Assembly (NCBI GenBank): GCA_015055905.1
Contig: SVHI01000014.1
Span: 1 to 34,193, forward strand
Source: Clostridiales bacterium
GTDB taxonomy: Bacteria > Bacillota > Clostridia > Christensenellales > UBA1242
Length of the DNA stretch: 34,193 nt
Reading direction: 5' to 3'
Under the pieces are notes generated by a model. It did no database searches. It worked only from the letters and a program-made list of their open reading frames with translations, and had not been told where the DNA came from. Positions 8,456-16,203 of this stretch are shown piece after piece (positions within the stretch are counted from its first letter, which is position 1; every line of letters starts with the position of its first letter). A program made the translations under genes and the position numbers.

Positions 8456-8486
8456 AAAGATAAGCAAATTGCTTATCTTTTTTTAT
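8456..8486. terminator. Rho-independent terminator between proS and xer-like gene
   Basis: agataagcaa/ttgcttatct stem plus T-run. Confidence 0.85.
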
Positions 8487-9535
8487 TCCGCTCTAAGCGA
8501 TACTGCATTTGATGCCTCACGACGTATTTTGTCAGACATAGCAGCATAGTGCTTCTTTGTAGTGTTAACATCACGATGTCCCAAAACATCGGCAACTATA
8601 TAAATGTCTTGTGTGGCTTGATAAAGCCTTGTGCCATAAGTTGAACGAAGTTTGTGAGGTGTGATATGTTTGAGTGGAGCAACGATTGTTGCATACTTTT
8701 TAACAAGTTTTTGAACCGCTCTTGTGGTTATACGCTTGTTTTGAAGTGAAACAAACAGAGCAGGCTCATTAACAAGTTGTGGGTTTTTGGCGCGCTCTTC
8801 AATCCAATAGAATAACGCAACTTTAACCTCATCACTGAAATACAAAATTACTTGGTTTCCACCTTTACGGGTAATTTTCATACCATTGATTTTAAAATCA
8901 ATATCTTCAACGTTTAAACCGACACATTCCGACACACGCAGACCAGTTCCAAGTAACAGCGTCATAATTGCAGTGTCACGAATTTTTGTATGCTTATGAA
9001 AGCCTTTTTCGTGGCCAGACAAGCCATAACCAGACTCAACAGTTCCCAAAAACTTATAAACTTCATCATCTTCAAACCTAATGATTGGCTTATCGTGAAG
9101 TTTTGGCATTTCAATTTTACTCGCAAGGTCAACTGAAATCATTTCTCGTCTAAAGTAATATTTAAAAAATGAACGAACAGCCGCAATTTTTCTGGCTTTT
9201 CCACGTTCGCCATTTGTCACAATCTCGCCGTCTTTTTTTTCATAAGATGTGAGATAACTCATATATCTTTCAAAGTGTGTTGAATGAAACTTTTCAAGGT
9301 CTTTAACTTCAAGTTCAAACATCGACTTTTTATCACGAAACAAGTTTGTTTCTGTTAACGCCCAGTTAAAAAATGTTCGCAGGTCATAAGCATAATTAAT
9401 TCTTGTGAGCGCGCTGGTCTTATTTTCAATTCCAGTAAAAAAATCTAACGCAAAATCAGGGAAGTCATAAAGAACTTCTCTTAGCCTTGCGGTCAGTTTT
9501 GTTCGCTGCTCATTGTAATAATCTTGCTTTTTCAT
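8483..9535 (-). CDS. Tyrosine recombinase, Xer family (single-chain, XerS-like architecture)
   Basis: 350 aa; catalytic set LGTGLRVSE (R), TRKGG (K), HKLRSTYGTRL (HxxR), LGHRDVNTTKKHY (H...Y); SAM-like N-terminal core-binding domain. Confidence 0.9.
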   Translation of the reverse strand: MKKQDYYNEQRTKLTARLREVLYDFPDFALDFFTGIENKTSALTRINYAYDLRTFFNWALTETNLFRDKKSMFELEVKDLEKFHSTHFERYMSYLTSYEKKDGEIVTNGERGKARKIAAVRSFFKYYFRREMISVDLASKIEMPKLHDKPIIRFEDDEVYKFLGTVESGYGLSGHEKGFHKHTKIRDTAIMTLLLGTGLRVSECVGLNVEDIDFKINGMKITRKGGNQVILYFSDEVKVALFYWIEERAKNPQLVNEPALFVSLQNKRITTRAVQKLVKKYATIVAPLKHITPHKLRSTYGTRLYQATQDIYIVADVLGHRDVNTTKKHYAAMSDKIRREASNAVSLRAE

Positions 9536-9541
9536 AATATA

Positions 9542-9570
9542 ATTATAAAATAGTAAATTTATTTTTGCAA
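9542..9570 (-). promoter_or_regulatory. Putative xer promoter: TTGCAA (9570-9565), N17, TATAAT (9547-9542), 6 nt to ATG
   Basis: Consensus -10, 17-bp spacer and start codon at the expected transcription start (leaderless). Confidence 0.6.
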
Positions 9571-9585
9571 ATATTTTGCGAATAG
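9563..9585 (+). repeat. Tandem 11-bp repeat ttttgcaaata-ttttgcgaata(g), overlapping the xer -35 box
   Basis: One mismatch between the two 11-mers; the second copy is the same sequence as one arm of the 11816-11845 palindrome. Confidence 0.75.
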
Positions 9586-9631
9586 TTTTATTACACTTGA
9601 CAAATTTTCTTTATAAATTTAAACTAAAACT

Positions 9632-10432
9632 ATGATTGCATTAAATGAACTAGTTAAAAATTATGACAACTTTGTTGATAGATATAAGTTAATGGGGAAG
9701 AAAGCCAAACTCGACTCTATTATTTTTCTTGAGAAAAAATTTACAAAATTGCAACTTGAAACAAACCAAGAACGTTCAAACTGCAATAAACTCTGCGGCA
9801 ATGTTGCTGAAAAACTTAGACGCGGTGAAAGCACCACGAGTTTAATTGATGAAATCAACTCGCTCGACAAAAAGATTAATTCGTCAACAGCAAAACTCAC
9901 TTCACTTTATAAAAAAATCAACAACAAACTCAAAAAACTCCCAAGTTATCCAAGAGAAGATAACGTTTTAAATATTCCAATAAAAACAACTCAAACAAAT
10001 CTTGGTGCAAAAGATTTTGTTAATGAAATCGCAAAAATTGCCGAAATTAGAGAGTTGGAAGAAACAACTCTAGACTTTCTCAAATCTCAAGAAAACTGCG
10101 TTTTTGAGGTAGAAAAACTGCCAACTATCATTGGTTTTAAAAACAAAATTTCAATTCTATCTTCAAAAGACGATGTGCTTAAAATTTATGACAAACTTAT
10201 TAATTTTTTAGAGCAAAACGCAAAACTTTTAATCAAAAAGTCAATCAAGCAAATGAAAAAAGAAAGCACAAGTGAATACAGAACTGTGCTGGCAGACAGG
10301 TCAGTGATTGACATTAGGCTAGTTGAAGAATATTATTCAAGAGAATACAGCCTAAAATATCACGACTCAAAAAAAGATATGTCTAGGTTTTTAAACCAAA
10401 TAGACATATTCATTTATTCAAAATCATTCTAA
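9632..10432 (+). CDS. Protein with seryl-tRNA synthetase N-terminal (tRNA-binding arm)-like coiled coil; no SerRS catalytic core seen
   Basis: Residues about 9-112 follow the SerRS arm pattern (L..R..LQ.E....RN..).. here LDSIIFLEKKFTKLQLETNQERSNCNKLCGNVAEKLRRGE...IDEINSLDKKINSSTAKLTSLYKKINNKLKKLPSYPREDNV; the remainder is not recognisable. Confidence 0.7.
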   Translation: MIALNELVKNYDNFVDRYKLMGKKAKLDSIIFLEKKFTKLQLETNQERSNCNKLCGNVAEKLRRGESTTSLIDEINSLDKKINSSTAKLTSLYKKINNKLKKLPSYPREDNVLNIPIKTTQTNLGAKDFVNEIAKIAEIRELEETTLDFLKSQENCVFEVEKLPTIIGFKNKISILSSKDDVLKIYDKLINFLEQNAKLLIKKSIKQMKKESTSEYRTVLADRSVIDIRLVEEYYSREYSLKYHDSKKDMSRFLNQIDIFIYSKSF

Positions 10433-10493: not shown

Positions 10494-11105
10494 TTATTTC
10501 TTTGTGGTTGTTTTCTTTGCTGTTGTTTTAGCAGCTGGTTTCTTTGTAGCAGCGGCTTTTGGAGCAGCTTTTGGAGCAGCTTTTGGGGCAGCTGGTTTTT
10601 CTTCAACAATTGTTTGTTCTGTTTTGATTGTGTTTACAAAGTTTGTTGCATTTTGGAAAGCATTTGTTCCACGGTTGAATGTAGCAACTTTCTCTTCAGC
10701 GGTGAGTGTCTTCTTTTCGCCTGAAACTTCAACAAAGTTATTAATTGCTTGTTTATCAACTGCTTTTTTTGTGTGTTGTTCAACTTCGTGATTAACAATA
10801 ACAGTAGATGAGTTTAATTCATCATTAGCAGCTTTGTTAACGTCTGTGATTTGATTTACAAAGTGAAGAACTGCATTGTCATCTTCATAAACGCGAGGTT
10901 CTTCAACTGGAGCCTCTTCAGGAAGGGCAACTTCGCCATCAACTCTTTCAACTCTGTCTTCAACTCTTTGAACATCTGTGCCGGTTTTCTTTCTTCTTAA
11001 GTTATACCAAATCAATAAACCAACTACAGCCAAAATTAAAACAATGTCCAAAACGATAATAGCAATCAAACTGCCATCAACTTTACATAAAAAGTTATTT
11101 AACAT
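10494..11105 (-). CDS. Single-TM protein with a Lys/Ala/Pro-rich (histone H1-like) C-terminal tail
   Basis: N-terminal TM (SLIAIIVLDIVLILAVVGLLIWYNLRRKK), acidic middle, tail AAPKAAPKAAPKAAATKKPAAKTTAKKTTTKK; SD gaggtgg upstream. Confidence 0.8.
   Translation of the reverse strand: MLNNFLCKVDGSLIAIIVLDIVLILAVVGLLIWYNLRRKKTGTDVQRVEDRVERVDGEVALPEEAPVEEPRVYEDDNAVLHFVNQITDVNKAANDELNSSTVIVNHEVEQHTKKAVDKQAINNFVEVSGEKKTLTAEEKVATFNRGTNAFQNATNFVNTIKTEQTIVEEKPAAPKAAPKAAPKAAATKKPAAKTTAKKTTTKK
10554..10593 (+). repeat. Approximately 12-bp tandem repeat (gcttttggagca) inside the CDS, encoding the AAPK units
   Basis: agcagcttttggagcagcttttggagcagcttttggggcagctgg read directly. Confidence 0.85.
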
Positions 11106-11242
11106 AATCCACCTCTCTATATTATAACAATTTTATTATATCACATAAAAAAAATAATAAATAATAAAATTTTACACTTTTTCAAACTTTTTAAAAAATT
11201 TTTTGATTATTTAGGTGTTATTTCACACATAATTAGCAAATT

Positions 11243-11258
11243 AAAAAATCGGGTGAGT
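11243..11258 (+). repeat. Left arm of a 16-bp perfect inverted repeat (aaaaaatcgggtgagt)
   Basis: Reverse complement actcacccgatttttt at 11363-11378. Confidence 0.85.
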
Positions 11259-11314
11259 CATAATGACGATTTCTCACACAAAATTACAAAAACTTACCGC
11301 TAAATAATTTAAAG

Positions 11315-11337
11315 ATTCTGTCTCACAGCGTCTCACA
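11315..11337 (+). repeat. 23-bp direct repeat copy 1 (attctgtctcacagcgtctcaca)
   Basis: Identical to 11550-11572. Confidence 0.9.
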
Positions 11338-11362
11338 AAATCATTTCAAATTTTAAATGGAA

Positions 11363-11378
11363 ACTCACCCGATTTTTT
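11363..11378 (-). repeat. Right arm of the 16-bp perfect inverted repeat
   Basis: actcacccgatttttt, the complement of 11243-11258. Confidence 0.85.
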
Positions 11379-11549
11379 TTTCAATGATTTTTCTGGGGGA
11401 GTCACAAAAATTTCGCCCTAGTGTTATTCAGCAAATTAGAAACACTATTCAATCTCAAAATATCTCTTCAGCAAACACTATATGGAATTTTGGTTCACAC
11501 AGTTTATCGTGAAACAATTTGGTTGGATAATGGGTCAACAATTTTTTTC

Positions 11550-11572
11550 ATTCTGTCTCACAGCGTCTCACA
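11550..11572 (+). repeat. 23-bp direct repeat copy 2 (attctgtctcacagcgtctcaca)
   Basis: Identical to 11315-11337; further cacagcgt copies at 11571 and 11619. Confidence 0.9.
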
Positions 11573-11815
11573 CAGCGTCACGCAAAATAAATTCCCAGTA
11601 TCTCACATCACATAATACCACAGCGTGTCTCACAACACATAGCACCACAAACCATAAATAAAATCACACAAACGAAAATTAAAAATCAAGCCAAAGCGCG
11701 TCACAGCAAAACTACAAGCCAAATCAAAAACATTCAAATTCAAACTGGCTCACAAAACCAGATTCAAAAACCGACTGTTAATAACTGTCAACAACCCCAC
11801 TTCCACCCCTAGCAT

Positions 11816-11845
11816 CTATTCGCAAAAGCTGTGTTTTGCGAATAG
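11816..11845. promoter_or_regulatory. Candidate dif-like Xer recombination site: 12-bp perfect inverted repeat with 6-bp spacer
   Basis: ctattcgcaaaa gctgtg ttttgcgaatag; one arm is repeated upstream of the xer-like gene. Confidence 0.55.
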
Positions 11846-12298
11846 TTTGCACGAAGGTTTTTCACAATTCCCGAATTTATCAACATTCGCGGCTGTTAAT
11901 AATTTTGAATTTTTGACACTCCATTTTTCAAAAAAGACCTCTTTTTCTCTTCCACCCCACCGACAGTCTCTCTCTAGTGTTTAAAATTTTAGTCTCAAAT
12001 CGTGTTAAAATTTTTAAAAATTCAAAGTCAATTTTAATAAATCAAACACTAAAATTTAATCTAATTTTGATAATAAACTAGGCAAGTTTGATTAGGTGAG
12101 AAAATTAAATTCTATAAAAAACAGGTGAGAATTGATTTATTAAACACTTCAAATTTTTCTCAAAAATTTTTAAACTCACCCATTCACTCCCCTCAAAATT
12201 AGTTTTATACTAACCTACTAAATTTTTAAATTGACAAAATTTTAAATTGAACTATACTTATAAATTGTTAAAACTACCCTATCACTCAAGGAGCAAAA

Positions 12299-12802
12299 AT
12301 GATTAATATTGTTTTAGTTGAACCAGAGATTCCACAAAACTCTGGAAACATTGTTAGAACTTGTGCAGCCATTGGTGCAAAACTTTATATGGTTAAACCA
12401 CTTGGCTTTATTATGGACGACAAACATTTCAAACGTGCTGGAATGGACTACTTAGATTTCGCAAGCGTTTCAGTTGTTGATTCATTCCAAGAAATTTTGG
12501 ACGCAAACAAAAATGCCACCTTTTATTATGCTAGCACAAAATCTCAAAAAAATTACTGTGACGTGACATATCCAGATGGCTGTTTTATTGTTTTTGGAAA
12601 AGAAAGCTATGGGCTTAGCGAAAACATATTGAAAAACAACTATGACAAATGCGTTCGTATTCCAATGAGTTCGAAAGCAAGAAGCCTCAACCTTTCAAAC
12701 TCTGTTGCAATTATTGCCTATGAGGCAATGCGTCAACAAAATTTTGAATCTCTTCAAGAATATGGCCAACTCACTGGAAGAATTGAAAATGACAACTATT
12801 AA
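12299..12802 (+). CDS. trmL: tRNA (cytidine(34)-2'-O)-methyltransferase (SPOUT)
   Basis: NIVLVEPEIPQNSGNIVRTCAAIGAKLYMVKPLGF, FGKESYGLSE, RIPM...RSLNLSNSVAIIAYEA; SD aaggag. Confidence 0.95.
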   Translation: MINIVLVEPEIPQNSGNIVRTCAAIGAKLYMVKPLGFIMDDKHFKRAGMDYLDFASVSVVDSFQEILDANKNATFYYASTKSQKNYCDVTYPDGCFIVFGKESYGLSENILKNNYDKCVRIPMSSKARSLNLSNSVAIIAYEAMRQQNFESLQEYGQLTGRIENDNY

Positions 12803-13716: not shown

Positions 13717-16203
13717 ATGCGTAATATTGATAGTGATTTAATCCGCGGAAACATTGATACCATTATTCTCAAGACTATGCTTGAAGAAGATAAGTATGGT
13801 TTGGATATTATCAAAGAAGTTGAACAACGTTCTAGCGGAACCTATGAACTTAAACAACCAACCCTTTACAGTTGTTTAAAACGTCTTGAAAACCAAGAAC
13901 TTATCACCTCTTATTGGCTTGATAGTGACATTGGTGGCAGACGCCATTATTATAAACTTACTGAAAAGGGTCGTGAATTTTACAACAAAAAACAAGAAGA
14001 ATGGGCTAAGTCAAAATTCATTATTGACAACCTTTTAAGTAACTATGATTATGAAGAATATCGCCTTGTAAAGAAAGATGAATATGACCAAATTCAACAA
14101 GACAAAGAAATGATTGCAAGCGGTGCATACAAATCACAAAGTGCGTCAAATTCAGCATTTGAAAGTGCTATGTCTGGCAATACTCTGTCTAACATAACAC
14201 CTGAAGAAACTGACGATGAACCAGTGGAAGAATCACTTGAAGAAGCTGACGAAACAACAACCATCGACGAACTCATTGAGGAAAATAAATCAGCCTATGA
14301 CGAAGAAGACGAATATTCAAAAATCGATGAAATTGTAAGCGAAGAAGATGATGAAGACAACAACTTCTCTGTTGATGGAACTGAATTAAACTTTTCAATG
14401 GACGAACATTTTAATGATGACCACGAACACGATGAAGATTTTGAAACCACTCAGCCAGAAGATTTTGATGAAACCGAAGAAGAATTAAACACTGAACATC
14501 TTGATTTCTTTTCAAATAATGAAGAAACCGAAGAAGAAACCGATGACTCACCTGTTTATTATTCTAGCCAAGAAGTTGAGCCTGAGGAAGAAACAGAACC
14601 AACTATTAGTTATCCTCAAGCAGACCAAACAAACAATGAACTTAATATTTTGAGAAGTTTGCATAGCCAAGAAGATGAAGAAATCAACACTTATTATGGC
14701 GACAAATCTTCTTATGTTAATCATTTAAACAAAGATGTTGAAACTGAACAACAAAGTTTGCTTGATGCAAACCTCTATAACACTGTTAATGAGGTTGACA
14801 ATTCTATCAACAATTTCTCTGAAACAATCTCAAGACTCAACAATTTCAATAGCTCAAGAGTTGATGCTGAACCTGAAAACAATACAGAAGAAAGCGAAGA
14901 TGAAGACTTTGAAACCCACGAAAATTCAGACTTTAGAGATGAATTTAACCAAACAGACTCACCTGAATGGATTGAAACTGAAGAGACTGAACAACCAGAG
15001 GTTGACGAACTTGACGAACTCAAGTCTTTAAACCCACATTCTTCAACTGGTTTCTTCAAAAGTTTTGATGACACAGACTACTCAAAAACTTCAACAAAAG
15101 AAATCATTGATAGCATTAATGATGATGAACCTGACTATGACTACTTAGAAACAGACTCATCTGATGCAAGTTTTGAAAATGACAAAAAATTTGATGCATA
15201 CGAAGAATATTTATTCGGCGCAAACACCATTGAAAACGACTATAATACTGGCGATGACGAAAACGACTTCACTCCTCCAAACTATGAAGAGACTGAAGAA
15301 GAAACTGAAGAATTAACCTTCAATTTCGGCGGAAACACAACCGACAAACAAGAAGTTTGCAACATTGTTTCAAAAGAAACTTCAACTGAAAGTTTTGAAG
15401 AACGCAATCCAGATTGTTTTGTTGACTTTAGAACAAACACAGAACATAGATATGAACAAACAAACTTCGACGATATTAACGAAATAATTTCTAATAACGC
15501 AACAAACACATTTAGTTATGACGATGCAATATTTGCACCAATGGAAGTTAAACCAACTCAAAATCAAAACTACAAACAAAAACTTTCAAACCTTTCAGCA
15601 TATTCAAAGGTTTCTATCGATGATGAACCTGAAGTTAGAAACAATGAAGAGGCTCTCAAAAAAGCAAAAGATATTTCAGAACTCACAAAAGAGTTTGAAG
15701 AAGAAGGCATTGTTGTTAAACAACACTACAAAAACTCAACAGCTAGAAACTTTGACAGGTCTTACCTTCTCACCAATAAAATCAATCTTGTGAAGAGTAT
15801 GATTTTATTCTTTGGTTATATTTTCTTGCTTTCAGGCATCTACATTGTGCTCAACAACACATCATTTAGTGAATCTTATGGATTCTCAATCAAATATTTC
15901 TTATACGGATTCATTCCTTTTGCAGTTATAATGCTTTGCAGAGTTGCAATGTTCCTTATAAATCCATATAAAAAATCCCCTGCAAGATACGCCTCAAGAA
16001 TTATGATGTTTATTTCAATAATAATCACCATTCAATTACTTTTAATCACATACTGCGTTAACTTGCAACTTGGATTCTACAGTTTCTCACAACTTGGCTA
16101 CAATCACTTATACTGGATAATTCCAACAATTATCTCATTTGCGCCAATCGCTGACAACCTTATTTATATGGCTTTGTATAACTCAAAGAATTTCCACGTA
16201 TAA
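13717..16203 (+). CDS. PadR-family winged-helix domain + long acidic disordered region + C-terminal polytopic membrane domain
   Basis: N-terminal PadR (IRGNIDTIILKTMLEEDKYGLDIIKEVEQRSSGTYELKQPTLYSCLKRLENQELITSYWLDSDIGGRRHYYKLTEKG); roughly 500 aa rich in D/E/N/T/S; about 4 hydrophobic segments near the C-terminus; SD aaagga. Confidence 0.9.
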   Translation: MRNIDSDLIRGNIDTIILKTMLEEDKYGLDIIKEVEQRSSGTYELKQPTLYSCLKRLENQELITSYWLDSDIGGRRHYYKLTEKGREFYNKKQEEWAKSKFIIDNLLSNYDYEEYRLVKKDEYDQIQQDKEMIASGAYKSQSASNSAFESAMSGNTLSNITPEETDDEPVEESLEEADETTTIDELIEENKSAYDEEDEYSKIDEIVSEEDDEDNNFSVDGTELNFSMDEHFNDDHEHDEDFETTQPEDFDETEEELNTEHLDFFSNNEETEEETDDSPVYYSSQEVEPEEETEPTISYPQADQTNNELNILRSLHSQEDEEINTYYGDKSSYVNHLNKDVETEQQSLLDANLYNTVNEVDNSINNFSETISRLNNFNSSRVDAEPENNTEESEDEDFETHENSDFRDEFNQTDSPEWIETEETEQPEVDELDELKSLNPHSSTGFFKSFDDTDYSKTSTKEIIDSINDDEPDYDYLETDSSDASFENDKKFDAYEEYLFGANTIENDYNTGDDENDFTPPNYEETEEETEELTFNFGGNTTDKQEVCNIVSKETSTESFEERNPDCFVDFRTNTEHRYEQTNFDDINEIISNNATNTFSYDDAIFAPMEVKPTQNQNYKQKLSNLSAYSKVSIDDEPEVRNNEEALKKAKDISELTKEFEEEGIVVKQHYKNSTARNFDRSYLLTNKINLVKSMILFFGYIFLLSGIYIVLNNTSFSESYGFSIKYFLYGFIPFAVIMLCRVAMFLINPYKKSPARYASRIMMFISIIITIQLLLITYCVNLQLGFYSFSQLGYNHLYWIIPTIISFAPIADNLIYMALYNSKNFHV

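Follow-up and report, generated by a model that had tools for sequence, protein, structure and literature searches.

Does a perfect 30-bp palindrome in a gene-free part of a Clostridiales genome act as the chromosome dimer resolution site (dif) of its host, and if so, with which recombinase? The palindrome is located in the window, by which we mean the whole analysed stretch of 34,193 nucleotides. A preliminary description had proposed two perfect 12-bp arms around a 6-bp spacer, GCTGTG, in an ORF-poor island; the arms and the spacer were present exactly as described, and the surrounding ORF-free stretch measured approximately 1.19 kb (Table 1). What was computed here is the sequence, its copy number and conservation, its position relative to the terminus in related genomes, the gene content, the joint change of the arms and the enrichment of half-sites in promoters. 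On this basis the palindrome is very probably a dif site, acted on by a single 350-aa recombinase according to the mechanism proposed below.

Table 1. Features of the window with their positions and strands.
Feature	Position	Strand	Description
Xer-type tyrosine recombinase gene (single)	8483..9535	-	350 aa; Phage_integrase 110.9 bits (PF00589); catalytic R200, K224, H294, R297, H320, Y330
Predicted xer promoter	9542..9571	-	TTGCAA or TTTGCA, 17-18 nt, TATAAT; consensus scan only
Lone half-site	9574..9585	+	TTTTGCGAATAG; probable autoregulatory operator next to the -35 box of xer
Predicted divergent promoter of neighbouring gene	9597..9625	+	TTGACA, 17 nt, TAAACT; consensus scan only
ORF-free island with putative dif	11106..12298		Position constant within the genus, sequence variable
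Putative dif site	11816..11845		Arms 11816-11827 (CTATTCGCAAAA) and 11834-11845 (TTTTGCGAATAG); asymmetric 6-bp centre GCTGTG, 11828-11833

The palindrome and its setting

As a bare palindrome the 30-mer is unremarkable and proves little alone, since similar perfect inverted repeats are not rare in the AT-rich window, where about seven (arms of at least 12 bp, within 50 bp) were counted. Its conservation, its single-copy status and its location are far beyond chance. The 30-mer was detected once in the 1.19-Mb draft genome, even when three mismatches were allowed. Gene orientations, which had been described as converging on the region, do so on the larger scale only; the adjacent genes at 10494-11105 (-) and 12299-12802 (+) are divergent from the site.

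A perfect intergenic inverted repeat might also encode an RNA hairpin, for example a bidirectional intrinsic terminator. The palindrome is, however, followed by a T-run on neither strand and is not among the hits of the terminator scan. The Rfam scan gave no match at the palindrome, and elsewhere only weak matches below the gathering scores, except for a tRNA.

Two further repeats were observed in the island. The sequence CTGTCTCACAGCGTCTCACA, at 11318-11337 and 11553-11572, occurs in exactly two copies genome-wide, both in the island and on the same side of the putative dif, and a perfect 16-bp inverted repeat, AAAAAATCGGGTGAGT, with arms separated by 104 bp, lies to its left at 11243-11378 of the window. 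The motif TCTCAC was not enriched in the islands of the genus relatives examined.

Conservation across the order and the phylum

Genomes were searched with a 12-N6-12 pattern allowing up to three mismatches, and the reversed pattern served as control. When the order was sampled evenly, the site was present, nearly always as a single copy, in 181 of 297 genomes and 83 of 126 genera; the reversed pattern matched in none of the 297 genomes. Among 299 other genomes, drawn evenly from the phylum, none contained the site at this threshold. By these matches the site is a marker of the order, because 181 of 297 order genomes carry it versus 0 of 299 others in the phylum, and diverged forms are seen in Lachnospiraceae. 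Several members of the order without a site at three mismatches or fewer have diverged sites as well.

When the 1.19-kb island was used as a DNA query against 60 relatives, many genera returned just the approximately 34 bp around the palindrome, and the remaining matches were scattered and AT-rich. Conservation at the flanks of the site stops beyond two bases. In the loci fetched from relatives the arms were often perfect, and the 6-bp centre differed both in sequence and in direction. The prediction that the site would be conserved and its flanks not was in this way borne out across genera and families.

Location at the replication terminus

In four relatives from four families, the distance between the site and the cumulative GC-skew maximum was 334, 1,380, 2,938 and 8,377 bp, on contig stretches of 340-800 kb that were picked for length, non-randomly, and of which only the one from G005 belongs to the genus of the window. 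The sign of the skew switches at the maximum. A location near the GC-skew minimum or terminus had been expected; the site lay at the skew switch point in four of four long contigs, and the extremum is a maximum, not a minimum. The location is derived from relatives only because the contig of the window spans just 34 kb, the right side of which has minus-strand genes and negative skew, as expected of one replichore, and the left side of which is weakly skewed. KOPS-like oriented heptamers and octamers were also searched for; the search returned A/G-rich words only, inseparable from ordinary strand bias.

The Xer-type recombinase

The Xer-like recombinase claimed to be encoded about 2.3 kb away was confirmed, with a gene start 2,281 bp from the site. 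The 350-aa recombinase is the sole PF00589 match in its own genome. A second xer gene, the presence of which had been left to be checked, was not found there; the assembly is a draft of 41 contigs and approximately 93% complete, so that such a gene could be absent from it. In the relatives G008, G017 and G026, with genomes estimated to be 99-100% complete, one Xer-type gene each was detectable. A canonical dif was also sought, in this genome as well as on two long contigs, and the matches were no better than those of the reversed control. The genome encodes an FtsK gamma domain (94 bits).

Relatives of the recombinase were detected in 58 of the 60 genomes searched, with two matches weak or partial, and the catalytic R/K/H/R/H/Y residues were invariant in 111 relatives. 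The named relatives included Christensenella-type and Lachnospiraceae records, such as Blautia wexlerae, and XerD, XerA and XerH were among the PDB sequence matches. The best NCBIfam match was XerS (NF003462) at 187.5 bits, which is under the curated cut-off of 267 bits. In a quick tree, the recombinases of Christensenellales and Lachnospiraceae formed one clade of 34 rows with a support of 100, and three XerS proteins scoring over the cut-off (branch of 2.78) and the other Xer proteins of the phylum fell outside it; the support is SH-aLRT only, with no bootstrap, and the tree was made without streptococcal XerS, XerH and XerL.

Two other genes of the window may be mentioned. The one at 9632-10432 (+), divergent from xer, encodes the N-terminal domain of seryl-tRNA synthetase only, and a similar gene adjoins xer in G001. 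The one at 13717-16203 (+) encodes an unusual 828-aa fusion protein, which starts with a PadR regulator domain, continues with an extended acidic part and has hydrophobic segments at its C-terminus.

Co-change of the arms

The two arms of the site change together. Over 137 distinct sites, which were gathered by similarity to the arms of the window (up to six mismatches, a limit on the divergence among them), the arm-arm mismatches totalled 176, against 268 +/- 7 when right arms were shuffled between species, a comparison that gives no p-value, the related genomes not being independent. The pairing of CTATGCGTAAAA with TTTTACGCATAG is one example. In these sites the A/T bases at the three innermost positions of either arm are essentially invariant, and the spacer is variable and self-complementary in none of the 137. 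One enzyme on both arms is indicated because the arms co-change while the centre varies and is never self-complementary. Together with the lone, catalytically complete recombinase, the co-change suggests that one protein fits both arms, in keeping with the earlier proposal of a single recombinase acting on a symmetric site.

Compensatory arm changes are also what an RNA hairpin would produce. The arm sequence itself, however, is kept across families beyond what pairing alone would demand, and one-sided changes that break the pairing exist, such as an A opposite A at position 5. Lone arms, which are unable to pair, recur in xer promoters (see below), and a hairpin would leave the location at the skew switch without explanation. 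We regard the hairpin as exceedingly improbable.

A lone arm in the xer promoter

A half-site precedes the -35 box of the predicted xer promoter by 2-3 bp and lies between two divergent predicted promoters (Table 1). All eight genus members examined had a half-site in the xer promoter, between about -50 and -57 relative to the start, exact in seven of them and with one mismatch in the eighth. The 400-kb stretch of G005 contained four half-sites, namely two in the putative dif, one in the xer promoter and one elsewhere.

The putative dif was upstream of xer in 96 of 96 loci with both on the same stretch, and in 38 of 102 loci having both features the distance was 160 bp or less. Among the 64 remaining loci, 23 had an arm (up to one mismatch) within 130 bp upstream of xer, compared with 0.14 expected from base shuffles; this count is slightly low, as the promoter half-site of G001 (no mismatches) falls outside it. 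Several promoter arms matched the arm variant of their own species (CTATGCGCAAAA in L066, CTATGCGTAAAA in L049 and TTATTCGCAAAA in L058). A full-size second site was found upstream of xer in five family f20 genomes, 0.3-1.9 kb from the putative dif; its centre is TATTTG throughout, and one inner base is altered (CTTT). This second site may most simply be read as an operator, bound without recombination.

The recombinase likely regulates its own expression through the lone arm, as this arm adjoins the xer -35 box. A narrow literature search found no report of Xer autoregulation. The lone arms in the xer promoter resemble operator use, and in many relatives the palindrome itself is 30-160 bp upstream of xer; it could accordingly be asked if the palindrome is nothing else than the operator of a transcription regulator, possibly of the recombinase as a repressor only, with no role in recombination. 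Against this, the full site is found at the terminus, in an ORF-free island and up to approximately 3 kb from any xer promoter, and its centre, a fixed and non-palindromic 6 bp bordered by invariant AAA/TTT, is what a tyrosine recombinase crossover site typically shows. The only Xer-type gene would also be left without a dif. A role of the palindrome as an operator alone is very unlikely.

Phages and mobile elements

Viral contigs were scanned for one arm plus N6-TTTT, which gave 63 stretches. The other arm was present with up to two mismatches in 28 of them, several of the contigs being near-duplicates, and approximately 0.3 would be expected (eight free positions, estimated with uniform base use). 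A gene for the terminase large subunit lies close to many of the viral sites (viral contigs L294-L355), at distances between 0.1 kb and a few kb. By analogy with other elements known to use dif, phages may employ the host recombinase for integration or for the resolution of phage dimers.

In G001:C178 (L286, 3886 onward), the syntenic dif position keeps one arm in the hybrid CTATTCGCAAAA-GCGGTG-TTTTTGTGCAAATTG. The hybrid site is adjoined by non-syntenic, membrane-protein-rich DNA, and the other junction is absent from the assembly. This arrangement is suggestive of an element or phage inserted into dif. The proteins of the putative insert had no informative match, and its 358-aa protein had no relatives in the viral contigs.

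The matching sites on viral contigs and the hybrid site of G001 beside non-syntenic DNA could also be expected if the palindrome served a mobile element for attachment and the recombinase were the integrase of that element. Yet both gene and site are found across the order, the gene tree broadly follows the host lineage, and the window has no element around either the gene or the site. The site tracks the terminus, and the recombinase is the only Xer-type protein found in the genome. An attachment site is therefore a most improbable reading.

Comparison with known Xer/dif systems

With two inverted 12-bp arms around 6 bp, the site falls within the layout of chromosomal Xer/dif sites in general, in which arms of about 11-12 bp enclose 6-8 bp. 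Single-recombinase systems are known as XerS/difSL (PMC5357621), XerH/difH (PMC5241119, PMC2731167) and XerL/dif (PMC9765430), and also as XerA/dif. In the XerL/dif system of Legionellales the arms of 10 or 12 bp are perfectly symmetric, and in Legionella xerL is more than 400 kb from dif (PMC9765430). The present system shares with it the single recombinase, the perfectly symmetric arms, the terminus location and the mobile elements using the site, but it belongs to another phylum and its gene is usually within a few kb, downstream of the site.

The XerS/difSL system of streptococci and lactococci resembles the present one in its single recombinase (356 aa versus 350 aa here, with XerS as best NCBIfam match), in the adjacency of gene and site and in the terminus location (PMC5357621). 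The recombinase differs from XerS by its score under the cut-off and its separate clade, and the symmetric 12-6-12 site differs from difSL, which has 31 bp, unequal arms and an 11-bp central region (PMC5357621). XerH of Campylobacter and Helicobacter (354-362 aa) is likewise a single recombinase, often gene-linked to a site with a hexanucleotide centre, and acts as a homotetramer on the nearly symmetric difH; the left arm of difH has an inserted base pair, and differences between its arms determine the order of cleavage (PMC5241119, PMC2731167). The similarity to XerH is weak, however (phmmer E 1.6e-8, catalytic domain), and the outer arms differ. With the XerCD/dif system of B. subtilis and E. 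coli (PMC3025954) are shared the site at the terminus, the inverted arms, the 6-bp centre and the FtsK gamma domain, whereas that system has two recombinases and unequal arms, and here neither a second gene nor a canonical dif was found.

Proposed mechanism and significance

The function of the palindrome may be depicted as follows: the 350-aa recombinase would bind both identical arms as a dimer, and two sites on a dimeric chromosome would pair to form a homotetramer. The recombinase would then cut at the borders between arms and centre and exchange strands, giving two monomers, with FtsK as the likely activator. The non-palindromic 6-bp centre would make the site directional and thereby steer the reaction towards resolution. 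In this way chromosomes that have become joined by accident would be separated ahead of cell division. By binding the lone arm next to the -35 box of its own gene as well, the recombinase would control its own expression.

A wider evolutionary reading is about evenly balanced between true and false: the single-Xer proteins of Christensenellales and Lachnospiraceae would form one distinct clade that has a dif of its own, and where dif has left xer, a lone or degenerate arm would have stayed behind in the promoter to serve as operator. One protein would then resolve dimers and repress or tune itself from the relic of a recombination site, and diverse phages would exploit the site.

The symmetry of dif itself is not new, as the perfectly symmetric arms in Legionellales show. 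No version from Clostridia, Lachnospiraceae or Christensenellales was found in the open literature, subscription papers and preprints being outside the search. The general kind of single-Xer system is thus known, and the version in this large group of gut Clostridia appears to be undescribed. If true, the finding would show, for a group of bacteria that is common in the gut, at which site dimers are resolved and by which enzyme. A symmetric site with one enzyme raises the question of how strand exchange is ordered when the arms, unlike those of difH, are equal. The site may further serve as a landmark of the terminus in draft genomes, and it is a likely point of entry for phages.
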